Assembly: GCA_036250195.1 (NCBI GenBank)
Contig: JAVHZZ010000004.1
Location: forward strand, 256,308,728-256,372,727
DNA from: Mixophyes australis
Lineage: Eukaryota; Chordata; Amphibia; Anura; Limnodynastidae
Direction: 5' to 3'
DNA length: 64,000 bases
A program made the translations under genes and the position numbers. The notes beneath the pieces are model-generated. The model did no database searches and was not told the DNA's origin. It was given only the letters and a program-made list of their open reading frames with translations. Shown piece by piece: positions 3,955-26,735 of the stretch. Numbering within the stretch: the stretch's first letter is position 1; every line of letters begins with the position of its first letter.

Positions 3955-4526
3955 TCCTCTGACGTCATCCGGAAGTAGCGTGCGTGCCACTGTGGAACGC
4001 ACGCCATCTCCTTCCTTCTGTCGGCAATACACTATCATTAAGGAGCCACCACGTGAGCGCGGATAGCGCTGTACAACACACGGGGATCCCTGCACCGTAA
4101 GTTAACTAGGAGACACTGCTGGATTCAAATTAATGCTGGATTGTTGAGGTTTAGCTTAACTGTGGATTGGACTTTGTTCTCTTTGTGATTTGTTGGTGAC
4201 AAGGATCCATTATCCTCATATAGGCAATTGAAGTGGCCTCTATTGTTTATATATAATTGGACTTCCGATACCTGCTTGTGTGATTCACCTGCTATGCCAT
4301 TGTTTATTAAGGACCCTCAATTTTATCTGTTGTTTTTACTGTTGCACAACAAATGTATAATTTTATTCTGTGATATTTCCACCGATTGGTACATCCATAC
4401 CCATTGTAAGACAATTGAGCGCAATTATTTTTACTATTGTACTAGATTTTAAAGGGATAGGATATTTCCCTTCAATAATAGCTGCTCTTGTTTTATCGGA
4501 GTTGAGCGCTACCTGCATTTATTATA
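3955..4526 (+). repeat. PLE-1 5' pLTR
   Basis: Direct repeat of about 9285-9909. Both copies share ctgacgtcatccggaagt near the start, the stretch around ccaccacgtgagcgcggata, and the end around gagcgctacctgcatttatt. This copy is shorter because it lacks an internal duplication present in the 3' copy (about 9596-9762). It has an extra segment around 3990-4020 missing from the 3' copy. It starts close to where the hammerhead-like cleavage site would fall in the 3' copy. Confidence 0.85.
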
Positions 4527-4570
4527 TGATCTACAGTTTTATCCAGAGGTGTGCGCTCCTCTTTTTTATC

Positions 4571-5767: not shown

Positions 5768-7576
5768 TTGACTACACCTACAGGGATTTTTAACCTAAAC
5801 TCACACCCATTATCAGTAGCTGAAACAAGTGTTCTCAACAAAGGATTAAAATATGCCCCCACCAAATCTATGAATAAATTTACCACTTACTTAGACGTAA
5901 AGCGCTTTGTGAGAAAGCTTATCCTCAAGAAATTCTTTGCCAAAACCCCATGGAACGGGCTATTACAAGTGAGCAGTCCACATATAAACATACCAATTTA
6001 AAACCGGAGTCTTTATTTTATCCATGTCAAGTAAAGGGATGTCTAATAGAAAGTTTCGAAACTTTGGTCCTTAATGATATAGACAAAATTAAATAACAGA
6101 AAACTAACAAAGTGAACTTAACCCCCATAGAAATGGATGCACTGAAAGGACTGCAAGGTAACAAGGAAGTTACGATTAAACCAGCAGACAAATGTGGGGG
6201 TATTGTTGTTCTCAATACCACCGACTATATTGCCGAAACGTACAGACTTCTGTCTGATACATCCACATATGGACGTCTACCATCCAATCCTACAAATACA
6301 TATTCTGAGCAATTAAAAACCAATACTAACAGAAGGGAGGGATTTGGGAATTATAACCCTTAACGAATTCAATTGCATACACAATACTCATCCTACCATT
6401 CCTGTTATCTACTATCTACCCAAAATTCATAAAGATTCCATTCATCCCCCAGGAAGACCGATAATTTCAGGAATCGGATCCATTACTGCCAATCTCTCCC
6501 ACTACCTAGATACATATCTGTAGGCACATGTAAGACAACAAAAAGCCTTTTTGAAAGACACTACGCATATTTTACAGCTACTAGATACCGTAACATGGGA
6601 ACCAGACTATTGGCTGGTCACATGCGACGTGACATCCCTATGCACAGTGATTAAACATGATCTGGGTATAATAAGCATTCGGCACTTTCTTGAATAAGAC
6701 CATGATTTAAACCAGAAACAGGTTGAATTCATACTTACAAACATAGAGTTCATTTTAAAGCATAATTACTTTTGGTTCAATGACGAGTTTTATCTACAAC
6801 TGCAAGGGACAGCCATGGGCACTAGGTTTGCCCCCAGCTATGCAAATTTGTATATGAGTTTCTGGGAGAATGAAACAATTTGGTCCAACAATAGCTGGGA
6901 GGCAAACCTAGTGCTCTGGAAGAGATTTATAGATGACATTATTATAATTTGGCGAGGCTCTGAAACGGATTTACTTGAATTCATTTCTCATATAAACACG
7001 AATCAATATGGCTTACAGTTTACAGCAAAACATAGTCAGGTATCTATAGAGTTTTTAGATTTGGACATTTTTATTTCAGATGGTAAGATTGCCACAAAAA
7101 CGTACAAAAAACCTGTGGATGTGAATAGCTATATTCTATCCGATAGTCACCATCACCCCTAATGGCGAAAAGCAATTCTGTTTAGTCAATTTACGAGAAT
7201 CCGACGTAACTGTACTTACCTACAAGACTACATAAAACAAGGCACAGAAATGGTTTCAGACTTCCAAGTTAAAAAGTACGATACGGAATTGATTCTGGAT
7301 GCATTCGACCAACTCAAACACACAGAGCGCAACACACTATTACAATACAGGAACACTAATACTACTGTATCGGCAACAAATCGTGATCAGATCTATTTTA
7401 TTTCTGATTACTCAAGGGGAGCATATAAACTTAAGAACATAATCAAAAAACATTGGCATATCCTGCAGCAAGATAATACCATAGGATCTCTCCTACCGGA
7501 ACATCCTAAAATTCTATTTAGAAAAGCCCCAGATCTGAAGCAAACCCTTGTTAAAAACCATATAAAAAACCAATGA
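5768..7576 (+). pseudogene. PLE-1 reverse transcriptase
   Basis: Penelope-type reverse transcriptase, broken into frames at 5768-6001, 6112-6363, about 6364-6800 (with stops), 6815-7162 and 7250-7576. Visible motifs: KPADKCGGIVVLN near 6178 (usual ADKGGG has one Gly to Cys change), IHPPGRPIISGIGS near 6440, motif A CDVTSLCTVI near 6622, motif B GTAMGTRFAPSYANLYM near 6806, and the catalytic motif FIDD near 6926 (YIDD in PLE-2). EFLDLDIFI near 7048 matches the motif after the catalytic centre. In-frame stops occur at about 6522 and 6695. The catalytic aspartates are still readable, but no continuous protein can be made. The connection domain (to 7576) leads to the endonuclease. Confidence 0.88.
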
Positions 7577-7599
7577 CTCGAAGACAAACTGGCTTAGTA

Positions 7600-8067
7600 T
7601 ATCTAACCGCAAACCCGGTTTTTCCTACTGTGGTAGATGTAGTAATTGTAAGTGTTTAAATCACAGGTCTACTACCAACACTATGGAATTTTATTCCACA
7701 TACAATAAAACTAGGTTTAACATAGGAATTTATCACTTGCGATACGAAAAATGTGATTTATGTACTTGAATGTCCCTGTTCAAAACAATACGTAGGACGA
7801 ACAATTAGGCTTTTGAAAGTTAGAATAGGAGAACATATAAGGAACATCAAAAATGGGTTTGAAAAACATCACCTCTCTAACCATTTTAAATTACAACGTA
7901 ATTGTGATCCCAAAGGTCTTAAGTTTATTGGTATTAAACATGTACAGATGAATTGGAGAGGAGGGAATCATATTAAAAGAATCAATAGGGAAGAGTCAAA
8001 GATGATCCTCCTCCTGAATACTTTATTACCACGAGGACTCAATGCTGAGTTTGACCTCACGATTTGA
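7600..8067 (+). pseudogene. PLE-1 Cys motif and GIY-YIG endonuclease
   Basis: C-terminal part of the PLE protein. A cysteine cluster, CGRCSNCKC (about 7632-7660), is followed after a frameshift by the GIY-YIG domain in the frame ending at 8067. The GIY-YIG core reads NVIYVLECPCSKQYVGRT (about 7747-7800), with a conserved Arg and EHIRNIKNGFEKHHLSNHF downstream. In PLEs this endonuclease nicks the target to prime reverse transcription. The first Gly of the usual GIY motif is replaced by Asn here, whereas PLE-2 reads GIIYLLECPCGKQYIGRT. The frame ends GLNAEFDLTI, matching GLNIDFELSKF of PLE-2, so the C terminus is complete. Confidence 0.88.
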
Positions 8068-8230
8068 TACTTAACAGTCTACTCTCCTCCCCCTCCTTTC
8101 TCTCTTCAGTGACCTAGTCCATAAGTCTGGCTGGCTTGTTGTAATGGACATAGAATACCACTGTCTGTGTACATTTTTGTTCAGTTTACCGTAAAGCTAT
8201 ACCAGCCCCCAAGGTGATATCTCCGTGTAT

Positions 8231-8348
8231 GCTACTACCATAACACCCTGGGAATGCCCAACCTCTGCCAAACTTGGAAGCCAAGCAGAGTGTGCCAGAC
8301 TAGTACCAAGAAGGGAGACCGCTTGGGAATATCTGGTGTAGTAGGTAT
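8231..8348 (+). ncRNA. 5S rRNA-like domain in the PLE-1 3' region
   Basis: About 118 bp aligns end to end with vertebrate 5S rRNA, in the sense direction of the PLE. Best preserved is the internal promoter: ggaagccaagcagagtgtgc (box A region, about 8276-8295) and aagggagaccgcttgggaat (box C region, 8311-8330). The ends 8232-8238 (ctactac) and 8338-8344 (gtagtag) form a perfect 7-bp helix in the place of 5S helix I. Two of its pairs differ from my recollection of the Xenopus sequence by paired changes (G-C to U-A and G-U to A-U). It lies 163 bp after the endonuclease stop. It could be a 5S retropseudogene, the head of a 5S-derived SINE, or a captured element domain. Similarity is clear; function is inferred. 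Confidence 0.85.
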
Positions 8349-9222
8349 ACATGTCTGAGAATAATTATCCCAATTTGGGGATGACTGGTCAATGGTAAAT
8401 ATGTGTACTACTGAACATGATGTGATACATCCACTACGCATGCCTCAGCATTATTTTGTAGGATCATGGACACACCCCAGACATGATTTATGAATCTCTC
8501 GGAGTTATACATACATTTGTTTAATGATTCCTAGGATGTGAAAAGGAATGTATTTATCTAGTCAGGTCACTGATAATTCAAGTTTCATTCATTGTTGATG
8601 GCCATTTTTAATTTTATCCTTAATTTTTAGTTCTAATTTATATTTTTTTCATTATATCTCAATCTACCATTATAGCCACCTACTCCTTTAGTCCGTGGTT
8701 TTATTATATAGATTTTATTCACATATCCTTTAACATGTATGATTATGTTAATTATGCGGATTAATATGGTTATCATTGCTCCTCATGTCTACCACGTACC
8801 CATTATTTATTTATAAGTATCCATCCTTTTTAACTATTCCACTAAGGGTACATCAGATAAGTAATTACAGTAGTTTATATTTATCACAAATGGGGATCAG
8901 AACTTATGTTATAAACATTACCCCCTTTTTTTATCTGTGATCTATGTAACAATTCAATGTTAATTACCAACTAATGCCTGCTTGTGAACTTGACCCGGTT
9001 CATAAATCTGTATGTTTATTTTGCTGACTATATGTATTATGAGACACAATGCATCAATCAGTAAATATTATGCCACAAACTTTGGTATGATATATTCTGT
9101 AATTAATATATTAGCAATTAATGTTTGCCCATTAATGACTCTGCTATATAAAATAGCCATGTTTAATTGCCAACTACACGGATCACCACTAGCTATATAA
9201 GGACACAGATTGATTTGAACCA
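8349..9222 (+). other. PLE-1 AT-rich 3' untranslated region
   Basis: No coding capacity: the only ORF over 60 codons (9012-9200) is AT-rich and resembles nothing. The stretch separates the 5S-like domain from the hammerhead-like motif. I see no second insertion in it. Confidence 0.6.
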
Positions 9223-9270
9223 TTCACCCCTGAAGAAATTCGCAAGAGCGAATGAAACGCGTAAGGGACA
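9223..9270 (+). ncRNA. Hammerhead ribozyme-like motif, PLE-1
   Basis: Reads ctgaaga (9230-9236, fits CUGANGA), an extra A, a perfect 6-bp stem attcgc/gcgaat with an AAGA loop, GAAA (9254-9257), then cgcgta. The ccc before the core and ggg after it could form helix I, with one intervening base. PLEs are known to encode minimal-helix III hammerheads in their pLTRs. The motif sits immediately 5' of the 3' pLTR, where self-cleavage would define the repeat boundary. The extra A between core and stem II departs from the textbook consensus but recurs in PLE-2 and PLE-3. Confidence 0.6.
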
Positions 9271-9284
9271 CGCCCCCACACCTC

Positions 9285-9909
9285 TGACGTCATCCGGAAG
9301 TGGCGTGCGTTCCACAGTCGGCAATACACTATCATCAAGGAGCCACCACGTGAGCGCGGATAGCACTGTACAACACACGGGGATCCCTGCACCGTAAGTT
9401 AACTAGGAGACACTGCTGGATTCAAATTAATGCTGGATTGTTGAGGTTTGGCTTAACTGTGGATTGGACTTTGTTCTCTTTGTGATTTGTTGGTGACAAT
9501 GATCCATTATCCTCATATAGGCAATTGAAGTGGCCTCTATTGTTTATTTATAATTGGACTTCCGATACCTGCTTGTGTGATTCACCTGCTATGCCATTGT
9601 TTATTAAGGACCCTCAATTTTATCTGTTGTTTTTACTGTTGCACAACAAATGTATAATTTTATTCTGTGATATTTCCATTCTATTGTTCAACAAGGACTC
9701 TCAATTTTATCTGTTGTTTTACCTGTTGCCCAATAAATGTTAAATATTATTCTGTGATATTTCCACCGATTGATACATCCATACCCATTATAAGACAATT
9801 GAGCGCAATTATTTTTACTATTGTACTAGATTTTAAAGGGATAGGATATTTCCCTTCAATAATAGCTGCTCTTGTTTTATCGGAGTTGAGCGCTACCTGC
9901 ATTTATTAT
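9285..9909 (+). repeat. PLE-1 3' pLTR
   Basis: Direct repeat of about 3955-4526. It contains a partial tandem duplication of about 85 bp (about 9596-9762): two successive segments each run from a caa(t)tttatctgttgttt core to ctgtgatatttcca, while the 5' copy has one. The ORFs at 9525-9743 and 9667-9936 are only this repeat read through and are not genes. Confidence 0.85.
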
Positions 9910-9913
9910 TTGA

Positions 9914-10606: not shown

Positions 10607-11100
10607 CCTGCGGCTTCCGTCTGAGAGGTCTGTCGGGCGCATGCGCCCTGCCTCGTCCCGTTGCCTAGCAACGGGACGCTACTTTCCCCGCCTCCTGGCT
10701 CCTCCAATCATCATTGTACCTGCCCTATTTAAACCTGGCTCTGGCGCCATTAGGGTGCCAGAGTAACAGGTTCATACCTAGTGTCCTGGTTCTCCTGCTT
10801 CCTTGTTCCCTATTGTGCTTCCATTATTCTGCTCTCCATTGTGACCCGGCTTGGCGACAATCCTTATCTGTGTGACCCATATTGTACTGCGACCTCGGCT
10901 TGTTGACTACCCTCTCGGATTCTCCCTGGTACCGTATATTCCTGATTGGCTCGACCCGGACCGTCTGACCCTTCTACACTACACCGGCAACTGGCTAGTA
11001 GGACCGCGACCTGCGCACCCTGTGCAGCGAAGTCCAAACCTCCTTGCAGGGGTCCCTGGCGAAAACCAGGGGTACGTTAGACTCCGCACCTGCTAGTTCA
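10607..11100 (+). repeat. Gypsy left LTR, truncated at both ends
   Basis: Matches 16462-16946 of the right LTR from ctgcggcttccgtctgagag to cacctgctagttca. It retains the TATA-like tatttaaacc (about 10730) that would position the promoter. It carries an 8-base segment (tggctcct) near 10697 missing from the right LTR. The ORF at 10851-11096 is LTR sequence (a parallel ORF occurs at 16696-16914), not a gene. Confidence 0.9.
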
Positions 11101-11352
11101 TTTAGGGCAGCAAGTGGAACAGCAAGAAGCTAACCAGGCCCAACTCCTGCACTGTATACAAGAGGTGATGTCCCGCCTGGAGGCCCTGAATCTTCCCCAG
11201 GCAGCATCTCCGGCTCCTTCTACTCCTCCTAGCGTGAATGTCGCTACCTCCAGGACTCTACGGACTCCCACTCCCGAAAAATATGACGGTAACCACAAGG
11301 GATGTCGAGGATTCCTCAATCAATGCCGGGAAACTCCACCTCCTAGGCAATA
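11101..11352 (+). pseudogene. Gypsy gag fragment
   Basis: Reads from 11114 as EQQEANQAQLLHCIQEVMSR, then a proline-rich linker, then PEKYDGNHKGCRGFLNQCRE. The pattern of an N-terminal helix, a Pro/Ser linker and the PxKYDG..CRGFLxQC motif is typical of gag of this gypsy group. The sequence then jumps to the protease, so most of capsid and the zinc knuckle are deleted. Confidence 0.8.
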
Positions 11353-11610
11353 AAAGGGAGGTTGTCCTAGGATCCAGTCTCCATACTCCCCACTCCCCTA
11401 AGGATACCAACTTTTTGATGCCAGTCACCCTCAAGATACTTCTCTGGAATGTTCCGCTTTCGTGGATTCTCGATCCGCAGGGCACTTCATCTCCGCCACT
11501 CTGGTGTCCAAGCTTCAGATACCCTCACCTTTTGTCCTCACCGCAGTTGATGGTACCCGAGTCAGCAAGGGCTCCATGTCACTCACCGGACTTTGAGTGC
11601 TACTTCTCGT
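11353..11610 (+). pseudogene. Gypsy aspartic protease fragment
   Basis: The frame around 11422-11600 reads LMPVTLKI, then CSAFVDSRSAGHFISATLVS, then LTAVDGTRVSKGSM. FVDS(G)SAG is the retropepsin active-site motif. Here the Gly after Asp-Ser is Arg (ggatctcga context near 11466), which should inactivate the enzyme. Processing of gag-pol is the known role of this domain. The fragment ends near 11605, where the inserted segment begins. Confidence 0.78.
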
Positions 11611-11848
11611 GTGTTTAGGAACCGTGGCCGTCCACCATCCTGAGGGTCTGCGCATGTGCAGCCCTTTCAAACCTTCAGTACATGTTCCTTTTAGTTAATT
11701 GGCTGATCAGGCAACACTCCCTATTTAAAGCACCTGAGGTCAATACCTCGTTGCCTGATCTTGGAGTCTCATTCCCCATGAGCCTCTGAAGGTGTTCCTG
11801 TTTCCTCGTGTATTCAGCCCCTGCTGATTCCTGTTGTTCGTTTGTGGT

Positions 11849-12168
11849 TTCCAAACCACTTCAACTCTCCTGTGTTTCATCGTGACTGCACCAGCTGATT
11901 CCTATCCGCTGCCTCCGTGCTTCTACAGTTTCCAAACCACTTCAACTCTCCTGTGTTTCATCGTGACTGCACCAGCTGATTCCTATCCGCTGCCTCCGTG
12001 CTTCTACAGTTTCCAAACCACTTCAACTCTCCTGTGTTTCATCGTGACTGCACCAGCTGATTCCTTTCCGCTGCCTCCGTGCTTCTAGTTTCCAGACCAC
12101 TTCAACTCTCCCGTATTTCATCGTGACTGCTCAGCTGATTCCTATCCACTGCCTCCGGGTTTCTGCAG
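11849..12168 (+). repeat. 81-bp tandem repeat, about four units
   Basis: Units begin at ccaaaccacttcaac near 11851, 11932, 12013 and (diverged) 12092, giving periods of 81, 81 and 79. The first three are nearly identical. As 81 is divisible by three, a repeating reading frame stays open, but the codons do not resemble a protein. Confidence 0.93.
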
Positions 12169-12790
12169 TATCCTGCTCATCGCAACTCTCCAGTGCTCAT
12201 CGTCTCTGCAGCCAGCCAATCCGCTGTCTCCGTGTTCTACAGTGTTCCTGCTTGTGTCATCTCGCCTGTCTGCATTGGATCAACGCCCCGCTGCTTTCAT
12301 CTCAGCTAGACCGCCTCAACTCTCCCGTGTTCTCCAGGTGTCCAGTTCTATATACTACTGCTTCCTGAGTATTGTTTCATTCCACGCTGGTCTACCTACC
12401 GTGTGCTGCACCTACTTGATTACCGCTTCCACCCTCCTGGGACTTCGCATTCCTGCCGGCCTCCAGCCGTTCAGGTATCCCTGCACCTCTCTCTGACAGC
12501 CTGCTCTCCTGAACCACGGTATGCATACTTCTCATTGACTGTGCTGGTGTATTGCATATCTTGCGGGACTGAGTTGTTCTCCTCCGGAGTTTCCTATCCA
12601 CTGAGACTATTGCCATCATTTGACTGTGTTCCCTTTCAGCGTGGATAGTTGTTGTGACTTTGTATATTTGTGCAGTGCTGCTCAGTTATTACTATTTTGT
12701 GCATATCATCGTGGGATCAAGTTCAGTGTGCCCGTGTATACTCTGCATTGCATCTATCTCCCCGTGCTCCTCCTCACTTATATATTTCAA

Positions 12791-13130
12791 TGGTACAACT
12801 TGCTAGAGGCAGACCACTGATTCCTGTTTCCTGTGTCACCTGTTTCCAGTATCCTTCCACATAGCAGTGGTACAACTTGCTAGAGGCAGACCATTGTTCC
12901 CTGTTCCCTGAGTCACCTGTTTCCAGTATCCTTTCACATAGCAGTGGTACAACTTGCTAACGCAGACCACTGACTCCCCGGATACCTTCATCTGGATTCC
13001 ATTCCTGCACCCAGACAGCGGTACAACTTGCTATACGCAGACCGCTGACTCTCATCACCTCCTTGTTACTTCTGGACATTCCTTCACTATAGCAGTGGTA
13101 CAACTTGCTATCCGCAGACCACTGACTACC
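12791..13130 (+). repeat. 77-bp tandem repeat with a covarying stem, five units
   Basis: Units carry ggtacaacttgcta at about 12791, 12868, 12945, 13019 and 13096 (periods near 77). Each has a short stem, cagtggt...accactg, around this motif. In the fourth unit both sides changed together to cagcggt...accgctg, keeping the pairing. The second unit keeps pairing through a G-T wobble. Confidence 0.9.
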
Positions 13131-13374
13131 CTCACGTTTCCTTGTCCATCCAGTTCCTCGTGTACAGTTATCCTCCTATTACCTGTGCTGCTAGTCATAG
13201 ACTTTCCTCGAGCATACTCTTACCATCTGCTGTCTCCTGTTCCGTGATCACCCCGCTACCAGAGTACCATTATACCAACTATACTGCTCTGGTAAGTCCA
13301 TCATCTGGTGATACCTGGGTAAAGACTCCTAGTGCCCGTGACACTCCATCACCTGTATCACATACCCAGTTTGG

Positions 13375-14640
13375 TTGCAGGTAGGGGTACTTCACCACAA
13401 GTGGATCGAGTTCCTGGTCATTCCGCAGTCCGTCAATTCCATCATCTTGGGTTTACCCTGGCTCAGAACGCATTCTCCACAGTTCGACTGGCTTCATGCC
13501 CAAGTATCCTCCTGGGGCTCTTCTTGTTTCAACAAGTGTATCTCTAAGGTCCACCCACCTAACCACTTACATGGTCTTTCTATTGCCTCTCAAAGCAAGC
13601 TCCCAGTACCGTACTTAGAATTTCTGGATGTTTTCAGCAAGTCCGCCGCTGAGAGTCTACCTCCACATCGTGCGTGGGATTGTCCCATCAAACTTTTACC
13701 TGGGAAGACCATCCCTAAGGGTAGAGTCTACCCGCTCTCTCTACCTGAAACCCAAGCTATGTCTCAGTATATCTCTGACAATTTTCAGCGGGGATTCATC
13801 AGGAAGTCTTCCTCCCCCGCAGGGACTGGATTCTTTTTTGTTAAAAAGATAGATGGCTCATTAAGACCCTGTATAGACTACTGTCGCCTGAAAGCAATCA
13901 CCATCAAAAACAGCTATCCTCTTCCTCTTATTACAGAACTTTTCGACCGCATCCAGGGGGCCAAGATTTTTTCTAAATTGAATCTTAGAGGAGCTTATAA
14001 TTTTATACGCATTCGGAAAGGCGATGAATGGAAAACTGCATTCAACACCCGCGACAGGCATTACGAGTACCTAGTGATGCCCTTCGGGCTCTGTAATACT
14101 CCAGCAGTTTTTCAAGATCTCGTCAATGAGATCTTCAGGGATCTTCTCTACCAATCCGTAATTGTCTACTTGGACGATATTCTAGTATTCTCATCTGATC
14201 TATGTTCTCATCGTTTCCATGTCAAGACAGTTCTCTCTCGTCTCAGGAAGCATTCCCTGTATTGCAAGCTCGAGAAATGCCTCTTTGAATGTTCCCAGGT
14301 GCCTTTCCTTTGTTATCTAGTATCTGGCACTGGTCTCCAAATGGACCCAGAGAAAGTAGATGCCATCAACTGGCCATTACCCGCTAGCCTGAAAGCTACA
14401 CAACGCTTCATCGGGTTTGCCAACTATTACCGTCAATTTATTAAAGGTTTCTCTTCCATCATCGCTCCTATTACGGCCTTGACCCGCAAGGGGGTCTGCT
14501 GCAGATCATGGCCTGCTGAGGCGATAACAGCCTTCAAGACAGGAAAGCCTTCAAGAAAGAAGCCTTCATTGTGGCTCCCATCCTTAAACAGCCAGACCAA
14601 GGGAGACCTTTCATGCTCGAGGTTGACGCTTCTTCGGTAG
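13375..14640 (+). pseudogene. Gypsy reverse transcriptase (421-codon frame)
   Basis: Reverse transcriptase of the gypsy element. The frame starts in the protease-RT linker (SIILGLPWLRTHSPQFDW) and contains GSLRPCIDYCRLKAITIKNSYPLP (RT motifs 2-3), motif 4 region IFSKLNLRGAYNFIRI (usual KLDLRGAYN, so the catalytic Asp is Asn here), motif B EYLVMPFGLCNTPAVFQ and the catalytic motif VYLDDILVFS (about 14164-14193). Thumb and connection follow (FIGFANYYRQFIKGFS). A frameshift near 14510 separates it from RNase H. It makes cDNA from the element RNA in active relatives. This copy is disabled by the Asp to Asn change and the frameshift. Confidence 0.93.
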
Positions 14641-14924
14641 GAATTGGGGCTGTCTCTTTGGAGACGTGCAGATTTCTGTCTAAAAAAAATTCCAGCTGCG
14701 AATTAAATTATGGGATCGGAGATAAGGAGCTCCTAGCCATTAAAATAGCTTTGGAAGAATGGCGCTACCTTCTCGAAGGGGCATTACATCCTGCGACTGT
14801 AATGACTGATCACAAGAATCTTAGGAGGCTCAGTGTCTCAAACTCTGCCAGGCTCGCTGGTCTCTTTTTTTTTTTCTTGATTCCAAATCATCCTGAACTT
14901 TCGCCCTGGTTCCAAAAATTGTAA
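14571..14924 (+). pseudogene. Gypsy RNase H
   Basis: Reads [20 protein letters not shown], then GIGAVS, then [20 protein letters not shown] and VMTDHKNL. These fit the gypsy RNase H motifs with catalytic D (EVDAS), E (DKELLAI) and D (TDHKNL). It overlaps the preceding frame because of the frameshift near 14510. A T-run near 14863 marks another slip, after which [11 protein letters not shown] is out of register. It degrades the RNA strand during cDNA synthesis in active elements. Confidence 0.88.
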
Positions 14925-15029
14925 AGCCGATGCATTATCCAGATCATTCGATAATACGGACTCCTTGGTCTCAGAGGATAACAAAACCATCCTTAACCCC
15001 ATTCAAGTGGTGGCAATCATCAACTCCTC

Positions 15030-16346
15030 TTCCGTCTCTCCTCCTCCTGGACGCTCCTTTGTAGACCCACATCTCCGGCCCAAACTTTTGTGCTGGGCAC
15101 AAGATTCTAAAAATTTGCAGGTCATGCTGGTTACAAGAGGACTAAGGAATTCCTTTCCAGATACTATTGGTGGCCTTCCCTAGGTTCTGATGTTCAGAAG
15201 TTTGTGTCAGCATACTGTATAGGTGCACGACACAAGACTCCTAGGCAAAGTCCTCCTGGTCTTCTACTTCCGCTTCCCATTCCTGACTCTCCGTGGATCA
15301 GTATTATGATGTATTTCATCACCGACCTTCCTCGGAGTCACGACTATAATACCATCTGGGTCGTGGTAGACCGCTTCTCAAAGATGTCTCACTTCATCCC
15401 ATGTAAAGGTCTTCCTTCAGCTCCTGAGCTCGCAAATCTGTTTTTAAAGAATGTATTCCGTCTCCACGGGTGTCCTCAAAAGATCATCTCCGATAGGGGA
15501 GTACAGTTTGTGGCTAAATTCTGGAGAGCCTTTTGCACCAAGATTGGAGTCAAACTCAAATTCTCTTCCGGCTACCACCCTCAAACTAATGGACAAACGG
15601 AAAGAGCAAACCAGGATCTGGAGTGTTTTCTATGATGCTTCACTTCGGAGAATCAAGCTTCTTGGAGTGACCTCCTTTATTGGACCGAATTTGCCCATAA
15701 TAATCTCTTACATTCTTCCTCTGGTTATTCTCCTTTTTTCGTGATCTATGGTAGACATCCTACTCCTCCTTTCCTATCCGAGACTCCAGCATCTCCTGTG
15801 CCTGCTGCTGACTCCCTCATTCACGATTTATCACAAATCTGGACCAAAGCCAAGGCAACACTTTCTACTTCAGTGCAACGACATAAGATTGTTGCTGACC
15901 GCCGTCGAAAGAATCTTCTGGTACTGAAAGTGGGAGATCGTGTATGGCTGGCAACTCGCAACCTCCGGCTCAGAGTTCCGTTGATGAAATTGGCTCCCCG
16001 GTTTATAGGTCCTTTTACTATCTCTCAAGTCATCAACCCCGTTTCTTACAAACTCTCATTACCTCCTTCCCTCAGAATCCATGACACCTTCCATATCTCC
16101 CTGCTAAAACCTCTAGTCCTCAACGAATTCTTCAAAGAACCTGTCTCTCCTCCACCCGTCAAGACCTCTCTGGGGGACGAATTCGAAGTAGAGAGAATTC
16201 TGAAGTTTTATTTTGTTCGAGGTAATCCCCAGTATCTTGTGCATTGGAAGGGCTATGGCCCTGAGGAGAGATCCTGGATCCCGGAGGCTGATCTTCATGC
16301 TCCTCGTCTCCTTGACAAATTCCTGGAGAGGATGACCCTTCTTTGA
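15030..16346 (+). pseudogene. Gypsy integrase with C-terminal chromodomain
   Basis: The zinc-binding region (about 15060-15240) is frameshifted, and its CxxC has become CIGARHK. From 15204 one frame runs to 16346 with a single TGA at about 15633 (likely CGA to TGA). Core motifs: IMMYFITDLPRS (usual MDFI, so the first catalytic Asp is Tyr), IISDRGVQF (second Asp kept) and GYHPQTNGQTERANQDLE (Glu kept). A GPF module follows (RFIGPFTISQVINPVSYKL). A chromodomain ends the protein (FEVERIL, YLVHWKGYGPEERSWIPEADL), which in chromoviruses directs integration to modified chromatin. The chromodomain looks intact; the catalytic centre is not. Confidence 0.92.
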
Positions 16347-16370
16347 GGGAGAGGAAGAGGGGGGGGGGTA
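16343..16370 (+). promoter_or_regulatory. Gypsy polypurine tract
   Basis: gagggagaggaagagg followed by a G-run directly precedes the right LTR. This is the usual primer for plus-strand DNA synthesis. It follows the integrase stop within a few bases. Confidence 0.88.
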
Positions 16371-16371
16371 C

Positions 16372-17008
16372 TGTCAGGCACCATCCCCGCAGATATCGTC
16401 AGTCGGGGACGGATGCCTTCCTTCCGGCCGCAGCGCTCTGTTGCTAGGCAACAGTCGCACTGCGGCTTCCGTCTGAGAGGTCTGTCAGGCGCATGCGCCC
16501 AGCCTCATCCCACTGCCTAGTAACGGGACGCTACTTTCCCCGCCTCCACCAATCATCATTGTACCTGCCCTATTTAAACCTGGCTCTGGCGCCATTAGGG
16601 TGCCAGAGTAAGCGGTTCATACCTAGTGTCCTGGTTCTCCCGCTTCCTTGTTCCCTATCGTGCTTCCATTTTTCTGCTCTCCGTTGTGACCCGGCTTGGC
16701 GACCATCCTTATCTGTGTGACCCATATTGTACTGCGACCTCGGCTTCTTGACTACCCTCTCGGATTCTCCCTGGTACCGTATATTCCTGATTGGCTCGAC
16801 CCGGACCGTCTGACCCTTCTACACTACACAGGCAACTGGCTAGTAGGACCGCGTCCTGCGTACCCTGTGCAGCGAAGTCCAAATCTCCTTGCGGGGGTCC
16901 CTGGCGACAACTAGTGGTACGTTAGACTCTGCACCTGCTAGTTCAGTAGCGCCAATTCCAGTTAGTGTTCAGTTCCATTATACTCCTCAGAAGGCCTGCG
17001 GCCTGACA
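16372..17008 (+). repeat. Gypsy right LTR, complete
   Basis: 637 bp from tgtcaggc to gcctgaca, with perfect 8-bp terminal inverted repeats. It shares its interior with the left LTR (10607-11100), including the TATA-like tatttaaacc near 16571. It is followed directly by DIRS gag sequence (agaagcagctgagaccctg). Confidence 0.93.
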
Positions 17009-17262: not shown

Positions 17263-19484
17263 CTCAGAGAATGGGAGAGCAACCCACAGAAACAACGCAG
17301 AAGACAAAAATATTAGAAAAACAAAATGATTGTCTTCGAATGATTAATCTGTCTGATAAAAATTTAACCCAAACTCAGATCAATATCTTAACAAGAGGAC
17401 TGTCTTTTTCTCCAACAATGGATATCAATCGATTTGAAATCGAGAAAGATTTATATTTTTTGGGGAGAAGACTAGAACGACATCCCCTTAAGAAATGTTG
17501 AAACTGATGTAAACCCCCTTGCTATAACAGAGTTAGAGGAGGTTCAATCTACTTCTCTTGAATCTCAGGACTTACTACTGATTAATATATTAGAACTACA
17601 AACAGGAATCTGGACATAGATCTATGCCAGTGCAGGATCCTGATAAATTCTCTTGAAGAAGAAATCTACATTTTGTCCTAATTCTATGATATGTCCTCCG
17701 GTTTCTGTTTTTTTTTTAAATTAGTCTCTAATGATTGGATGATTTGATGTCTAAGTTCAATGTCAAAAACTCCAATATTACTGCAGAGGAAAGAAAAGCC
17801 TTAAAATAAATTAGTCAATGGGAGGATGTGATCATAAAACCTTCGGACAATGGAGGAAATATAGTCCTTAGGTCTACAAAGGACTATAGGATGGAAGTAT
17901 TAAATAAACTTCACAATAGAAATTGTTATCATAAGTCGACATGAAATCCCACTACTTCTTATCTGGAAATATACCATTAGCTGATTAATCGTGCTTTAGA
18001 AGAAGGAGTGATAACTAAGGGAAACCATGACTTTTTATGGCTTGAAAATCCCAGAATATCTACCTTTTATGTGTTACCAAAGTTCCACAAAAACGAGAAG
18101 AAACCACCAGGCAGACCCATTGTCTCAAGCATTGGGAATTTGACCGAGAAAGCTAGCATTTATGTGGATGCCCACTTGAGAGCATTTGTTTATACACTAC
18201 TGTCATATATGAGGGATACCCTTGATGTTCTGTGAAAAATTCAGAACATATCAGTTAAGGATGACACATGTTTATGTACATGTGACATAGAAGCACTCTA
18301 TACGAGTATTGAACATAAGAAAGGCCTCTATGAGTCAAACAATTTCTTGATACTAAAGTTAAAAATAACCACAATGACTATCCTTAACCTATTAGAATTT
18401 ATACTATCCAAAAATTATTTTATTTTTGACGGCCAATTCTTTTTGCAAATGAGAGGTACAGCGATGGGCACAACGTGTGCCCCCACATATGCAAATATTT
18501 AATTGGGATGATGGGAGCGGGAAATGGTGTTTTCAACTGAGAAATATACACAATTTGTCACTGTCTGGTTATGATTCATAGACAATATTTTTATTACAAG
18601 GGGATGTACAAATCCTTAAAGAATTCATAAACCATCTGAACATTAATCAAATGAATCTTAAATTAACTTATGTTAGCTCCACACAAGTAACATTTTTGGA
18701 TCCGACTATCAGTTACTGAATACAGAGAACTAAGTACGGATATGTTCAGGAAAAAGACAGCGACAAATAGCATTCTACACGCCTCAAGCTCTCATCTCCC
18801 AGCAACGATCAAGAGTATCCCTCAAAGAGAATATCTACGTAAAAAACGTAACTGTAGTGATCAAATAACTTTCCAGAAACGAGTGGATGAACTACGCACA
18901 AGACTTCTTAAAAGAGGCTATAGCAAAAATCTGATAAAGAAATCTTATAATGAAACAAAGTAGCAAGAGAAAAATTGTTTTTCCTAGAAAGGCTTGAGAT
19001 GCAAAAATAAGATTAATCAGTACATTTAATAAACAATGGAGTGGAATTCAATCTATATTAAAAAAACATATAGGTGTTCTGCAATCAGATTGCGATTTAC
19101 AAGAAGTGGTGGGAGACAGAATCCCCACGAGTTGGAAAAGATCTAAAAACCTTAGAGACATTCTGGTACATAGTCATTATCAATCTCAAATAAATACCAT
19201 GACAGGAATCCTTAATAAAACTATTGGCTTCTTTCCCTATGGTAGGTGCAAAGCTTGCAAGTTCACAAGAAAAACGAAAATATTTAAAGATAGATTTAAT
19301 AGAGAACATACTATCCAAAGCTTTATCAATTGTGACACTCAAGGAGTGATATATTGCCTGACTTGTTCTTGCGGTTTAAGTTATATCGGAATGACCAGTA
19401 GACCCCTTAAACAAAGGTTACTGGAGCACATTGGTAATATCCATAATGCAGAACAAGATGTGAAAAGGTTTAGAACATTAACTA
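17263..19484 (+). pseudogene. Degenerate Penelope-like element PLE-4
   Basis: Heavily mutated PLE coding region of a lineage close to PLE-3. Readable parts: N-terminal segment (17271-17501), IIKPSDNGGNIVLRSTKDY near 17830, PPGRPIVSSIGNLTEKAS near 18108, motif A CDIEALYTSIEH near 18280, motif B MRGTAMGTTCAPTYANI near 18450, motif C FIDNIF near 18577 (last catalytic Asp is Asn), RKKTATNSILHASSSHLP near 18748, and the GIY-YIG endonuclease GVIYCLTCSCGLSYIGMTSR near 19345. Stops and shifts are frequent. The endonuclease is cut off at about 19484, inside the segment that PLE-3 reads as TNMKPLTTVAK. No terminal repeat is visible on either side, so the element lacks its ends. Confidence 0.85.
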
Positions 19485-19573: not shown

Positions 19574-20354
19574 CCATCTTTAGCCTCTATAGTGGGGGAA
19601 AAGAGACACAATGTCCCCGCACATTAAGGAAGATCCAATACAAAATAGCAGAGGCAGCTAGACCCCTGCTATTTGTGTTATACAAGGCAGAGAGAGAAGG
19701 GGAGTCAGAATGTTCCCTGCATCCTCTAGCGGCATCTAATCCAGCCCTACTTAAATCCGCTAGCAGAGCAACTCTTATAATAGGCCAATCATTTTGGACT
19801 TCAGTTTATAGAAGAGGCCAAGGCACGCCAAAAAGCCTGAAAATCCTTCTCAGACTTCAAGAAAGCGAATGAGCCTTTCAGGAGGCCCTTTCCACTAGGG
19901 GGTCAGATTTCGAGAACCACTGGTCCAGCCCAACACTTCCAAGGCACAAGAAGAGCCCAAAGAGGAGGCTTTGTGCACAGATCACATGATGCTACCAGAG
20001 GATCAGTCATAAATACATCGATCAACTCTATCAGAGGCCGCAGATACGGTAGGTTTACCCATTTATCCTTTTTTTTCTTCATTAGAAAACTCACAGAGAG
20101 TCATATTTGGAGTGGCAGCAGTTTACCACAGACAGGTGGTTGTTAAAAATAATCCAGTCCGGGATAAAACACCCTAAATTTGTTTCCCGCACCAGGAATT
20201 TCATATTCCTTGTACAAGGAATTGCAGTCCTCAGTTAAATGAAGTACTGGCACTGCCTCTACGGCAAATAAAATTATAGTTGTCGGATCCAACTGCCAAA
20301 GGCTGGACCAGGCACTTATTTCCTATAAGAAAGCAAGGCAGTTCTATAAGACCA
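19544..20354 (+). pseudogene. DIRS-2 gag to RT fragment, right
   Basis: DIRS sequence: end of a gag segment (DPSLASIVGEKRHNVP), RQREKG-type stretch, then a deletion joining the ANHF position to GLQFIEEAKARQ with a short T-run at the joint. Next come KKANEPFRRPF, QISRTTGPAQHFQGTRRAQRGG and the start of RT (FPIRKQGSSIRP) at 20320-20354. Frames are broken. It is interrupted at 20354 by PLE-2 and resumes with VQNVKA at 26326, matching 32250-32280 of DIRS-3. Confidence 0.82.
20339..20354. repeat. PLE-2 target-site duplication, left
   Basis: cagttctataagacca is repeated exactly at 26310-26325. DIRS-3 has the uninterrupted site once (about 32249-32264, with one base difference). Confidence 0.92.
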
Positions 20355-21182
20355 TATACTGGAGATTCCCGTGGCGCCAAAAATAACATATAAAGTATAG
20401 GTGTAGCAAAACCACTTTATTAGTACAAGTGGGTTAGAAGGTCCAGTACCACAAATAGCAGACAGTGTTATAAATATAAAAGCAATCGGGTACTGCTATT
20501 CAGCTGGATGGCGGCAGTAATCCTATACCAATGATATGACAGATAGGTACATAAATGAACTCTGATAATAAAGAGTTCAATCGCAACAAAATTTCCCTGA
20601 AGTCAAAATGTACAACGATGGATGCAAAATGCATGTAAGTGCTCAGTGGCAAAATAACAGACTGTAGTTCAGTATGCAAAGTAGACAGGGTGCAAATATA
20701 TACCTGTTGACTGGCATAGATCAGACGTCAATGCTGGTGTCAATGGATATAGATCAATATGTGGTCTCTAATAGTAAAGAGTTCAATCATCACATATGAT
20801 ACAAATATGAAGTATATTGGACATCTGTATAAAGATATGAGGTCCCAATAAGAAGGAGTCAGTGTTCACAGTTTATTGGACCGGTTAGTATTCTTCCATA
20901 TGGGCCTCGTGAGTATGCACAATATAGTCCCTGGTAGGTACAGATATTGCTGTGACCGACGAACCTACCCAAACTGTAGTTGAATGTAAAGTATGAATGA
21001 TCATATGTTGAAGTACTGCACAGACAATAGTGTCAGTGTGATAGTGAAGCAATCTTGCATTTGTTTAAAAAATCACTGGGTGTGATAACCATAGGTATAT
21101 CCTGCGTAGACTGACCCAAATGTTAATAGCGAGGGCATGATGTACTGCAGTGATGCAGTTATCGATAGACTCCAAATGGAAT
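20355..21182 (-). repeat. PLE-2 5' inverted copy of its 3' region
   Basis: About 826 bp forming the reverse complement of about 25374-26203. For example, the tip tatactggagattcccgtgg pairs with the stretch ending at 26203, and tcgatagactccaaatgga at 21162 pairs with the one at 25375. It is followed directly by the 121-bp direct terminal repeat. Confidence 0.93.
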
Positions 21183-21299
21183 CTCCAGTATATCCCATTA
21201 CGTTATTTAGAGGGTGGAAGCCTACCCATCAATCCTCTCGAGGCAGCCTATCACCTCCACATACCCAAAGGAAGCGCAGGCCCCAACCCACCTCCATAC
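21178..21299 (+). repeat. PLE-2 5' direct terminal repeat
   Basis: Matches 26189-26309 from ggaatctccagtatatccc to cccacctccatac with one visible mismatch. It marks the true 3' terminus of the element sequence carried over to the 5' end. The long ORFs across it (both strands) begin in this repeat. Confidence 0.92.
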
Positions 21300-21360
21300 T
21301 AATCTATTAGTAGGCTTCGTGGGACCTTGCAGCATCCTACACACATCTCCCCCCCTAGAT

Positions 21361-22250
21361 ATGCTCCAATTTTTAAGGAAAGATAGATTATCTAGGGTAG
21401 GGGACATTTTCTCGAAAAGAGATAGAGTAATAGAAACTAAAGTGAGCGAGGACACCTTCTGCGCCCACTTCCTAAGATATGAAAAACTACTCACCCTTGA
21501 GATTAAGCAATGGTGGGAGGTCACTACTTTGAAAAAATATTTAGAGAATAAATTGGTCCCAAGAGGCCTCAGAAACTTTAAACGCCCCACCTTAAACCTT
21601 GAGAACCCAAAATTCATGGAAGCATGGAACCTCATACTAGAGACATGCTCCAATGAACTCATGCAACATATCATTAGAGATACCTCCCTACAAAGAATAG
21701 AGGAGGAAATCGTCTTATTACAAGAAAAACAGTCCTCTCAATGATTTAGAGGATTATATTAAACTAGAAGAACTAACCAAGAACAAACTTAGAAATATTG
21801 AGGATACCCTCATTAAGAACAAAGAAAAAATTTCTGAGGGACGTTAAAGATTATGAACTTAACGTACAATTTCAACCACAAGACATTCATGAGACATCTC
21901 ACACTTTAAAAGGAACACATCGTTCTACACAACGTATAAATAAAAATACAGAAACAGTCCAACCACCGCATATTCTGGTAACCATCAGAACTCCTATACT
22001 AATAATCAACACCCTCTATCTAGGGAACGACCTAGATCTCCCCTTATCAAAAAGATCCCTACACAGAGAGCATCAAATAGAAACTATCCACCACTTAATC
22101 CTAGAAAAATAGGGACCCCTACCAGATGGGGAAGCCCACAAAATCAAAAGAGACACCATATAAACATATCTCCAACAAAGCAAACTACTTATCTTGCACT
22201 CACCAGTTACAGGAAGGGTAGAAAATCCTCATATAAAGAAACTTTGGAAA
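21361..22250 (+). pseudogene. PLE-2 N-terminal coding region
   Basis: Frame 21214-21744 starts in the terminal repeat; ATG 21361 (MLQFLRKDRLSRVGDIFSKR) is a more credible start. It contains EKLLTLEIKQWWEVTTLKKY and ENKLVPRGLRNFKRP, the conserved pre-RT domain also seen in PLE-1 (about 4715-4810). Then come a helical, charged stretch (RIEEEIVLLQEK; NDLEDYIKLEEL after a shift near 21742) and a second frame at 21798-22112. A stop and shifts break it before the RT frame. The domain has no function known to me; coiled-coil multimerisation is possible from composition. Confidence 0.78.
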
Positions 22251-22293
22251 CACAGAAAATCTTCCTGAACAGATTAGGAGTCCAAAAAGAACC

Positions 22294-23904
22294 ATGCACT
22301 GGATTAAGATCCTGGGATCAGGACCCAGATGCAAATATAAACCTTTTTTTAGAACTAGCACAGGGATCACGCCTACAACCAGATCCACAGAACCTTTCAG
22401 ACAACAGTCGTCCGCAACTATTGAGTGTGCGGAAAAAGAAAAAACGACAAGAACTGTCAGAGGAAAGCGAGGAAGAGGGATCACAAGAAAGGGGAGCCAG
22501 ACCCAAAATTCGCAAGTAAGGAACGATCAAGGAGGCATATATAATCTCAGCAATACCACACTCTCCACTCCCCAAAAAAACACCCTAGCGAAAGGCCTCA
22601 AATTTGCGCCAAACAAACCATTGAATAAATTCGAGACCTTTATAGATCTCCATAAATTCATTCGGAAAATCACCCTCAAAAATTTTTTCTCCCGTAACCC
22701 GATCAGTTCCCAGCCCAATATGACCTACAAAGAAATGCAAACAGAATCCCTTGATAAATACACACATACCAACTTCAAAGAGAAATCCTCATTTTATCCC
22801 CAACACATGAAAGGGCCCTTCATCACTACCTTTCAGAAATTGGTTGAAGAAAGAGACCTGGACCAATTCAATATAAGAAAAAAACCATTACACCCCAATC
22901 TAACTAAAAAAGAAAGAGAGGCGGTTTTAGACCTGGAACAGAACAAAGAGATAGTGATCAAGCCAGCCGATAAAGGCGGAGGCATCACAATTCTAAACAC
23001 ATCTGATTATAATACAGAACTAGACAGACAACTGAGCGATGTGACTACCTATGAACATCTCCCAGGCAACCCTGTCATTAGGTATCAGAAGGATCTGAAT
23101 ATTTTATTAAGCAAGGCAGCCACAGAAGGGATTCTCAACAAATCAGAATTGAAGTTCCTGTCCATCAATCACCCTAGACTGCCAGTACTATATCAATTAC
23201 CAAAAATCCATAAATCACTGACCAATCCGCCCGGCAGGCCCATAGTCTCTGGTATCAACTCACTCACCACTAACTTATCCAGTTACATCGACTTTTTCCT
23301 GCAACCGATAGTGGCTAAACAGAAAAGCTATCTCAGGAACACAAGCCACACCTTAGAGGTCCTTCGCAGAGTAAACTGGAAGGAAAATTTATTTTTTATG
23401 ACCTGTGACGTCACGTCACTAAACACCATAATAGATCATGAAGCAGGATGCAAACATGTACAATGTATCCTCTCTAACCAATCAGAACTACCCACACAGC
23501 AAATAGAATTTTTGTTGGATAGCATCCGATTCATTCTAGAACATAATTACTTCTGGGCCCCCAGTGGATACCATAGGCAGATTCGCGGGACCGCGATGGG
23601 TACGAAGTTCGCACCAAGTTACGCGAATCTGTTTATGGCCCACTGGGAAAATGAATATATATGGGCAAACCCTTATTCAGATTATGTCCATCTATGGCAA
23701 AGGTACATAGACGACGTCCTCTGTATTTGGACAGGCACAAGAGAAGAACTCGACTCCTTTCTCCAGCACATTAATAATAATAACCTTAACATCCGATTCA
23801 CAGCCAATATCAGTCAAAATAGAGTTAAATTTTTAGATTTAGATATCCACATTAAGGACAATAGAATCGAGACAAAAACCTTCCTAAAAGGAAGTAGACT
23901 GTAA
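22294..23904 (+). pseudogene. PLE-2 reverse transcriptase, 536-codon frame
   Basis: Longest protein-like frame in the window. After a low-complexity lead (residues 1-75), it contains LAKGLKFAPNKPLNKFETFI (about 97-117), IVIKPADKGGGITILNTSDY (about 220-240), NPPGRPIVSGINSLTTNLSS (about 310-330), motif A CDVTSLNTIIDHEAG (about 371-385), motif B GTAMGTKFAPSYANLFMAHW (about 432-451), the catalytic motif RYIDDVLCIWTG (about 470-481) and VKFLDLDIHI near the end. All three catalytic aspartates are present. A one-base frameshift near 23890 ends the frame; the continuation (VDCNSFIPYTSNHHNNW) is in the next frame. In PLEs this enzyme is related to telomerase reverse transcriptase. Confidence 0.93.
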
Positions 23905-24394
23905 CTCCTTTATCCCGTACACAAGTAACCACCATAATAACTGGCTTAGAAACATCCCAAAAGGGCAATTTATACGACTGAGAAGAAATTGCTCGACCAT
24001 TGAGCAATATGATGCACAGGCTTCAGTCTTGAGGGATAGGTTTCTAGAAAGAGACTACGATCCAAACCTTGTTATACAGGCCTATTTGGAGATTAGGGAA
24101 ACCAATAGAGAGGCCCTACTAGTGAAGAAAAACAAACGTCCCGACACCATTGCCAATAAAATCCCTTTCATCACCCGCTTCAGCAACGATTCTAAACAAT
24201 TTGAGATCATTAGAAAAAATTGGCATGTTCTGTTAGGAGATGAGGACCTTAAAGAAATATTACCTGCCAAACCCTCTTTCACTTACAAACGGGCAGACAA
24301 TCTGAAACAGAAACTAGTCAAGAGTGGCATACAACCCAACACACAGGAGCAAATGAGCACGTGGCTTAAAGATAATGAAAATGGCTTCTACTAG
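23895..24394 (+). pseudogene. PLE-2 RT thumb/connection domain
   Basis: Continuation after the frameshift near 23890: VDCNSFIPYTSNHHNNWLRN, then GQFIRLRRNCSTIEQYD, and the frame from 24029 (RDRFLERDYDPNLVIQAY; RKNWHVLLGDEDLKEILPAK; DNLKQKLVKSG). The same blocks occur in PLE-1 (7166-7576), PLE-3 and PLE-4, for example KHWHILQQD and LKQTLVK. The frame ends in NENGFY before a second frameshift into the endonuclease frame near 24385. Confidence 0.85.
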
Positions 24395-24836
24395 AAGATG
24401 CCAAGCGTGCAAAACATGCCAAAAGAAAGATACAAAACCGATTAAATCATTCAAGTCTTACTCTACAGGAGAAGTACATAAAGTGAGAAACAAATTGACC
24501 TGCGACACCAGGGGCATTATTTATCTGCTTGAATGCCCATGTGGAAAACAATATATTGGAAGGACTGGGAGAAACTTACACACAAGAATATCAGAACATC
24601 TCCGGAACATTAAAAAAGGATTTGAAGCACATAGTGTTTCAGATCATTTCTCTAAACATCACAAGAAGGACCCCACACTACTAACCTTTATGGGGATATG
24701 TAAAGTACCACCAGCATGGAGAGGTGGGGACTACACAGAACGTATATCCAGAGAAGAATCGAAATGGATCTATCTTCTGAAAACACTCAAACCGCATGGT
24801 CTCAATATTGACTTTGAGTTGTCCAAATTCCTTTAA
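24375..24836 (+). pseudogene. PLE-2 Cys motif and GIY-YIG endonuclease
   Basis: Reads RRCQACKTCQ (cysteine-rich motif, about 24393-24422), then LTCDTRGIIYLLECPCGKQY, IGRTGRNLHTRISEHLRNI and the C-terminal part ISREESKWIYLLKTLKPHGL. The GIY and YIG elements, the Arg of HTRISEH and a downstream Glu are present, so the domain itself looks intact. It only lost its link to the RT through a frameshift. In PLEs it cuts the target to prime reverse transcription. Confidence 0.92.
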
Positions 24837-25073
24837 TTTTTATTTTGATGCTTTACTCAGTTTTCTGTATAATTATCCTGCATTCAACATCTTCGCTAGC
24901 ACACCTTTCAATCCAAGTGCCCTATACAAACACACATGGCACAACAACAGTTTTAACTATCCATGGCTATGATTGGTGGATAGATTCCAGCCCACCGTTA
25001 TGGGACCAATCATATTTGACATACACGCCCACTGACTGCTATATAGGGATACTTCCCCATAGGCGATCTAACT

Positions 25074-25112
25074 ATCCCTGAGGAAGTCATCATTGGCGAA
25101 ACGCGTAGGGTA
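25074..25112 (+). ncRNA. Hammerhead ribozyme-like motif, PLE-2
   Basis: ctgagga (25078-25084, fits CUGANGA), an extra A, a 3-bp stem gtc/ggc around a 6-base loop, GAAA (25098-25101), then cgcgta (25102-25107). Helix I could form from tatcc (25073-25077) and gggta (25108-25112), including one G-U pair. The potential cleavage site follows gta at 25107. Helix III would be only about two pairs, as described for PLE hammerheads. Confidence 0.62.
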
Positions 25113-26309: not shown

Positions 26310-26735
26310 CAGTTCTATAAGACCAGTTCAGAATGTCAAAGCGCACCCATCCCTGGGTGCAGCTTTGGAATGTCCCCATGATAAGTAGTACCCCAAATGA
26401 AAATGAATGAGATGAGGACTTTGTACTCACCATAAAATCCATTTGGGGGACACTGCGCTCCCACTCTTATGTTCTGTTGGCTTTGGTTCTATGGTTCTTG
26501 TTTGAATGTTACTTTAGTCCTAGCCTTAGGGATGTGTTCGTTCATAACTGAAGGACCTCCGTACAGGGGGCATAGAGGGAATGGAGCAGGCCAGACAAGC
26601 TGTTTTTTAGCGTCTTACGCCCATCTCACCACAGCACCCTCTGTGCCCCATGGTAAGCAGTGTCCCCTAAATGGATTCAGAGAAATGGATTTTACAGTGA
26701 GAACAAAATCCTCTTTTTGGGTTACTATATATCTA
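26310..26735. mobile_element. DIRS-2 right remainder with terminal repeats
   Basis: Begins with the second copy of the PLE-2 target duplication (26310-26325), continues DIRS RT sequence for about 15 bases, then jumps to non-coding terminal sequence. 26395-26460 (gactttgtactcaccataaa, tttgggggacactg) and 26665-26725 (gtgtcccctaaatgg, ggattttacagtgagaac) are inverted copies of one terminal sequence. A related copy lies at 60680-60715. They fit the inverted terminal or internal complementary repeats by which DIRS elements replicate. Confidence 0.72.

Follow-up and report, generated by a model that had tools for sequence, protein, structure and literature searches.

A clade of autonomous Penelope-like elements (PLEs) carries in its 3' untranslated region (UTR) a full-length 5S rRNA-like domain which, to judge by the sequences compared, is an RNA-level mimic of 5S rRNA and not a pseudogene or the relic of a SINE. 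This reading is preferred over that of a relic, or of a domain serving chiefly as a promoter, because the 5S fold covaries, loop E is kept, the promoter boxes drift and a conserved terminator is missing.

The 5S rRNA-like domain of PLE-1

The window, i.e. the whole 64-kb stretch analysed (G000:C4:256308728-256372727, in a genome of 3.126 Gb), harbours at about 4-10 kb on the + strand a degraded PLE, PLE-1 (Table 1). It combines a reverse transcriptase (RT) and a GIY-YIG endonuclease (EN) in one element and possesses pseudo-LTRs, and is on these grounds a PLE. The endonuclease matches PF01541 at 7741-8067 with 24.3 bits (cut-off 22.6), and the RT pieces are homologous to L022, a relative with an intact 769-aa RT-EN ORF that was used as protein query, and to PLE-2, a second element of the window. 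The RT of PLE-2 reaches 26.3 bits against RVT_1, below the cut-off of 29.6, and a Pfam search with the ORFs of L022 (E up to 0.1) gave no match. The CTGAAGA...GAAAC sequence near the 3' pseudo-LTR resembles a hammerhead motif by eye and may be one; no Rfam hammerhead match was obtained in 8950-9500 at E up to 10.

Table 1. Features of PLE-1, numbered from the first base of the window
Feature	Position	Strand	Evidence or remark
5' pseudo-LTR	3956..4529	+	repeated at 9281-9913, in stretches of 362 nt (98.6%), 231 nt (93.9%) and 38 nt (92%)
Degraded reverse transcriptase region	5777..7724	+	tblastn pieces with L022 RT-EN protein, 49-76% identity
GIY-YIG endonuclease	7726..8067	+	stop codon 8065-8067; 80.5% identity to L022, 113 aa
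Outer stem, left arm, prolonging helix I	8206..8229	+	kept in PLE-1 subclade with 8348-8379
5S rRNA-like domain, full length	8230..8347	+	RF00001, 65.2 bits, 1-120 of 120
Box A position (host 5S 50-64, limits assumed)	8279..8292	+	72.1% mean identity to host, 28 copies
Loop E, 5' strand, AGTA	8302..8305	+	with 8327-8331: 96.8% mean identity to host, 28 copies
Box C position (host 5S 80-97, limits assumed), overlapping helix IV	8308..8325	+	76.0% mean identity to host, 28 copies
Loop E, 3' strand, GAATA	8327..8331	+	identity to host, 28 copies
Outer stem, right arm	8348..8379	+	fold and alignment of copies
Hammerhead-like motif CTGAAGA...GAAAC	9230..9262	+	by eye
3' pseudo-LTR	9281..9913	+	repeat of 3956-4529

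The first-pass annotation had described, after the endonuclease of PLE-1, a stretch resembling 5S rRNA from end to end in the sense direction. This is borne out by the full-length RF00001 match (cut-off 38, E 1.9e-11), the sole 5S match in the 64 kb (Rfam, E up to 1), and by locally aligning 8001-8600 with a Xenopus 5S sequence, which gives a score of 83 against 27 for the best of 300 shuffles; chance similarity to 5S is thereby ruled out. The site had been given correctly, as 8231-8348, with limits off by one base. The domain begins 162 nt past the endonuclease stop. In the PLE-1 subclade, the conserved unit is wider than the 5S domain itself (about 8206-8379), since a flanking stem prolongs helix I; on this unit our own model R1 scores 203.6 bits, the window copy being among the sequences from which R1 was built. 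Two double changes in helix I, noticed earlier against Xenopus, hold against the genome's own 5S too: where the host has G-U at pair 7/112 and G-C at pair 8/111, the window copy has U-A and A-U, respectively.

Distribution and origin of the domain

Searched at the DNA level with 7800-8600, the genome returned 63 matches (best 40 of 466 candidates scored), and many divergent copies match just in the endonuclease and in 8206-8379. All 28 loci fetched hold the 5S module, but they had been chosen largely for matching it; the module match follows the end of the endonuclease match by 70-152 nt in 28 same-strand pairs. With the module alone as query, 41 matches were obtained (the best 40 of 424 candidates being scored); the endonuclease lies directly upstream in 26 of the 30 module loci cut out, the other four being PLE copies internally deleted or rearranged.

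A sample free of this bias came from a protein search with the RT-EN of L022, which yielded 58 matches (58 of 38,760 candidates scored). The clade has recently been active, since 51 of these 58 lack an internal stop. From groups at 69, 65-67 and 60% identity, 14 of them were sampled at the 3' end, the 5S being disregarded in the choice, and each of the 14 lineages has a full-length 5S domain (65.0-86.8 bits) 81-109 nt past the stop codon. The same-place check that had been proposed for other copies thus gave a positive answer, the domain following the endonuclease there as well.

PLE-2 and eight PLE-2-type families (L060-L067, 56-67% identical to PLE-2) matched neither Rfam 5S nor our own model (0 of 9), and neither did PLE-3, PLE-4 and PLE-5 of the window; the idea that every PLE of this genome carries the domain is thereby ruled out. 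PLE-2-type elements differ in this respect from the PLE-1 clade and, as a neighbouring clade in the same genome without the domain, provide a built-in control. In a tree of RT-EN proteins with 31 rows, of which the outermost, PLE-3 and PLE-4, are long branches, the 20 module bearers lie on one side of a branch (support 98/96), with one state change. Given this single change and the pattern of presence and absence, one old acquisition by one clade is the simplest account: the 5S rRNA sequence was probably acquired once by a PLE clade and kept ever since, in a sampling that covers part of the many PLE lineages of one genome.

The 5S genes of the host form an array at C5:1.576-1.700 Mb with TTTT at the gene end (47 of 96,138 candidates scored); the PLE domains are dispersed, and do not form a tandem array with a terminator directly after the gene. 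Scans with exact 20-base motifs gave no match in viral contigs and none in genome contigs, and of 7 stretches of viral contigs fitting the pattern in an RT-EN search none was confirmed.

Selection on the domain

The module is under strong purifying selection. In the 249 of 378 copy pairs whose endonuclease identity is below 0.80, mean identity is 0.870 for the module and 0.758 for the endonuclease, with 0.511 at third and 0.903 at second codon positions; the module is the more conserved of the two in 249 of 249 such pairs, figures to be read as description and not as a p-value, because the copies are related. Identity between PLE domains and a host 5S is about 64-73%, part of these figures counting up to two shared gap columns; the range is 0.647-0.723 without the basal lineages. 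The same counting of up to two shared gap columns applies to all 28-copy identities to host, by which the host scores 1.017 against itself.

Fold and covariation

The whole 5S fold is upheld by compensatory changes in the transcript strand. When the commonest pair in 34 modules is compared with the host at each of 34 canonical pairs, 11 differ: seven by pair-keeping double changes, two by mismatches turned into pairs, one by a pair-keeping single change, and one (18/60) by being broken. Pair 18/60 is mostly broken; 7/112 and 9/110, two polymorphic members of the seven, often are, the former being U-A in 19 modules and unpaired in 15, the latter U-A in 11, C-G in nine and unpaired in 14. By per-column majority there are six double changes and 32 of 34 pairs are kept. 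With the changes scattered over the helices, at least six doubles arose in 1 of 100,000 draws and at least 32 pairs in none; redrawing the letters at fixed positions gave 1,007 and 43 of 100,000, respectively.

Along the same line, in the A2 alignment (34 modules and the host) 94.9% of cells pair and nine of 45 pairs show double changes, against 4.2 after shuffling (none of 500 as high) and 2-3 in slid structures; further pair types did not exceed shuffles there (25 vs 23.9; 125 of 500). Shuffling ignores kinship among the copies, and sliding the structure keeps it. With the basal lineages added (29 sequences, 28 distinct), doubles occur in 16 of 34 pairs, against 8.9 when shuffled (0 of 500 as high) and 2-6 when slid. 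The cells with double changes number 80 (26.7 shuffled, 3-13 slid), the covariation is 0.240 (0.143 shuffled, 0.056-0.108 slid), and 91.3% of cells are paired. The 28 closer copies by themselves show weak covariation, with a double change in one of 48 predicted pairs. The expectation that pairing is maintained, first raised from helix I of a single copy, is thus upheld over the fold. Helix IV pairs 78/98, 80/96, 81/95 and 85/92 change on both sides, and most of their letters also belong to Pol III box C.

The alignment of 28 copies yields the canonical three-way 5S fold with an outer stem. Folded as a single sequence, 8218-8361 is more stable than all of 200 shuffles (z -4.35), and the flanking stem prolongs helix I. 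None of 200 shuffles was as stable either for L079, L022 or the window copy when each was folded alone; two were for L081 and 21 for L071, whose fold is scarcely more stable than shuffles (z -1.38). The single-sequence minimum-energy folds of L071, L081 and the window copy depart in part from that of 5S. In the PLE-1 subclade, the outer stem (A2 columns 10-25 with 145-167) has 97.5-100% of cells paired. L078 and L080 have a flanking stem of unrelated letters (duplex p 0.052 and 0.011), and none is evident in L069, L079 and L081. The flank-pairing test is mixed (p 0.011-0.819 over 20 PLE copies; 0.657 for host 5S), and the stem is regarded as accessory because it is kept in the PLE-1 subclade but uneven in other lineages.

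These results bear on the idea, put forward in the first-pass annotation, that the domain is what remains of a 5S-derived SINE, and on that of a 5S pseudogene which the element has taken along. SINEs headed by 5S do exist, SINE3 being an example in the portion of PMC10886601 consulted. Yet every tested lineage of a deep clade has the domain in one and the same position, it shows purifying selection and covariation, and 30 of 30 module loci lie within PLE copies and none outside (best 40 of 424 candidates scored), so that no short, stand-alone, 5S-headed form was encountered and the domain belongs to the PLE, its tested bearers forming one PLE clade. The relic is counted as refuted by the 14 of 14 lineages and the covariation, and is almost certainly wrong. 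An insertion or pseudogene peculiar to the window copy is ruled out by the other copies, by selection and by the same 14 lineages.

Loops and promoter boxes

The part of the domain closest to the host is loop E, whose nine positions are 96.8% identical over the 28 copies; nine unpaired positions drawn at random equalled this in 301 of 100,000 draws. Over the same copies, identity to host is 72% in box A, 57% in IE and 76% in box C, 83% in loop B and 75% in loop A 10-13. The majority sequence keeps seven of 12 host letters in loop C; together with the figure for loop A 10-13, this means that the surfaces by which 5S contacts proteins are not all kept. Unpaired letters equal to the host in 28 of 28 copies are C10, A11, A25, A42, C44, A49, A50, A54, A55, G56, A74, G75, U76, A77, A90, G99, A100, A101 and A103. 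The zinc fingers of TFIIIA touch 5S RNA at loops E and A, and helix III with its bulged adenines is the RPL5 side of 5S; the letters kept would fit either contact.

Another use suggested was that of a Pol III promoter; lying inside the element, with boxes A, IE and C, it would give a short RNA or an extra transcript of the element. The sequence is a complete sense 5S in which every box position is present, and Cassandra, and probably Ajax, make this use of 5S, according to the parts of PMC10853983 and PMC10886601 consulted. That suggestion is weakened in several respects: the boxes have diverged from the host more than loop E; among PLE domains, the stretches outside the promoter are about as conserved as the promoter itself (0.841 and 0.862 vs 0.873, in 274 pairs below 90% identity); and a transcript would begin downstream of the ORF. 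Moreover, a conserved Pol III terminator was found neither in 30 module loci, in which the first TTTT comes 37-372 nt after the module, nor in 14 further lineages, where it comes 12-290 nt past the domain in 12 and is absent from the fetched stretch in two. The domain is probably not chiefly a promoter, and we hold this use to be decidedly unlikely as its explanation; a Pol III role may exist alongside an RNA role.

A possible role in the transcript of the element

A protein-binding role, one of the uses suggested at first, is judged the most likely. The domain would act as RNA, being part of the PLE transcript directly 3' of the RT-EN ORF, and a host 5S-binding protein would dock on it, the candidate partners being TFIIIA and its relatives in the oocyte, as well as uL18/RPL5 of the 5S particle. 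The docked protein might help the RNA to enter or stay in the nucleus, or to be stored in oocytes, and the RNA might thereby reach the chromosome, where reverse transcription is primed. A TFIIIA-like contact is favoured among these possibilities, because loop E is nearly unchanged and C10 and A11 of loop A are kept. We give an even chance to such mimicry of 5S in the transcript, with docking of a host protein leading to nuclear access or oocyte storage.

The broader proposal is that a PLE clade with a working 5S mimic enters the 5S ribonucleoprotein traffic of the host (the TFIIIA/RPL5 route) for nuclear delivery or oocyte storage, which would be a new kind of retroelement cis-RNA and the 5S counterpart of viral tRNA-like structures; it is advanced tentatively, at slightly less than even chances. 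In plant RNA viruses with tRNA-like structures, a mobile RNA imitates a structural RNA of the host in its 3' region so as to meet its partners. The two cases differ in the RNA that is copied (tRNA vs 5S) and in the bearer (virus vs retrotransposon), and the partner of the PLE is a putative one. A mimic of a host RNA would offer a testable handle on how PLE RNA reaches its target, of which little is known so far.

The main rival to mimicry for a host protein is self-recognition: the element's own RT-EN (or ORF1) protein would recognise the domain in cis, either in assembling the RNP or in target-primed reverse transcription, and the 5S origin of the domain would be no more than a handy scaffold. 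The place of the domain beside the RT-EN ORF is fixed, also in internally deleted copies, and structured 3' regions guide other target-primed elements, both points in favour of such an arrangement. Self-recognition has no need, however, for near-identity of loop E to host 5S, and neighbouring PLEs manage without the domain. Mildly against it is also Poseidon of Anolis, the sole PLE assayed in vitro according to the parts of PMC11167929 consulted, for which the needed RNA lay at the start of the ORF, within its first 172 nt. We regard self-recognition as unlikely, if the strongest competitor of host-protein mimicry.

The domain could also set the fate of the mRNA with no 5S-specific partner, e.g. 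as a roadblock to 3' exonucleases or as a regulator of translation or 3' end formation. A compact fold in a 3' UTR would suit this role, which leaves loop E and the other host-identical loop letters unexplained, and is considered highly improbable.

Relation to known elements

In the parts of the open-access literature consulted, including PMC10085705, PMC5911963, PMC7229834 and PMC8869645, no PLE with a 5S domain was found, and on the strength of this literature, without preprints, the 5S-bearing PLE is claimed as new. Poseidon, a canonical PLE, shares with PLE-1 an RT, a GIY-YIG endonuclease, pseudo-LTRs and, possibly, a hammerhead-like motif; it belongs to another PLE group, and the portions of PMC11167929 consulted mention no 5S domain in it.

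The 5S sequences of other mobile elements have been read, in the source portions consulted, as Pol III promoters, whereas in the PLE clade the RNA fold is selected, in a 3' UTR and in many lineages. The plant TRIM Cassandra resembles the clade in having a long 5S-derived sequence, long kept, which can fold like 5S; it is non-autonomous, bears the 5S in its LTRs as a Pol III promoter and follows the box mutations of the host (parts of PMC10853983). In the PLE clade, by contrast, an autonomous element bears the domain in its 3' UTR, with fold and loop E kept while the boxes drift. Unlike Cassandra and TRIMp3, the clade has an RT-EN ORF, intact in relatives of PLE-1, the domain of PLE-1 lies outside the pseudo-LTR repeats, and boxes 57-76% identical to host occur with no conserved terminator. 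Ajax and Helenus (TRIMp3) are likewise retroelements that captured a sequence derived from a small RNA, but Ajax keeps the promoter part alone, without the 5S fold (parts of PMC10886601), whereas the whole fold covaries in the PLE clade. SINE3, another mobile element with 5S-derived sequence, is short and non-coding with the 5S at its head as promoter (parts of the same paper), unlike the autonomous PLEs with 5S after the RT-EN ORF.

Other elements in the window and the genome

The genome is rich in PLEs with long open frames (58 of 38,760 RT-EN candidates scored; 81 RT matches of 22,956 candidates). Besides PLE-1, the window contains four further PLEs or fragments, at 17295-19441 (+), 21214-26321 (+), 45329-43675 (-) and 52314-53089 (+), all of lineages 30-50% identical in RT to relatives of PLE-1 and none with a 5S match. 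PLE-2 is bracketed by long inverted repeats (20354-21182 / 25373-26204, with blocks 98-100% complementary) and by a 133-bp direct repeat (21178-21310 / 26189-26321). Elsewhere, L018, L022, L023, L024, L025 and L026 are head-to-head inverted PLE dimers whose arms are almost the same in sequence, with endonuclease, 5S module and the start of a pseudo-LTR at the end of each; the second module of L024 lies just beyond the fetched stretch. L058 (C184:145535-145680) and C6:170990335-170990480 match the query over one and the same stretch (40-184); L058 has the beginning of the RT region fused directly to the 5S module, possibly the sign of a non-autonomous deletion family.

A unit resembling an LTR retrotransposon extends over 10608-16838, with direct repeats at 10608-10993 / 16460-16838 (93-96%), an ORF at 13375-14640 that is Gypsy-like by eye, and 77-81-bp tandem repeats near its 5' end. 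Finally, two palindromes, at 49013-49127 and 36466-36560, with sub-cut-off matches to microRNAs (mir-5408, mir-1805, mir-3927), are probably small inverted-repeat transposons.
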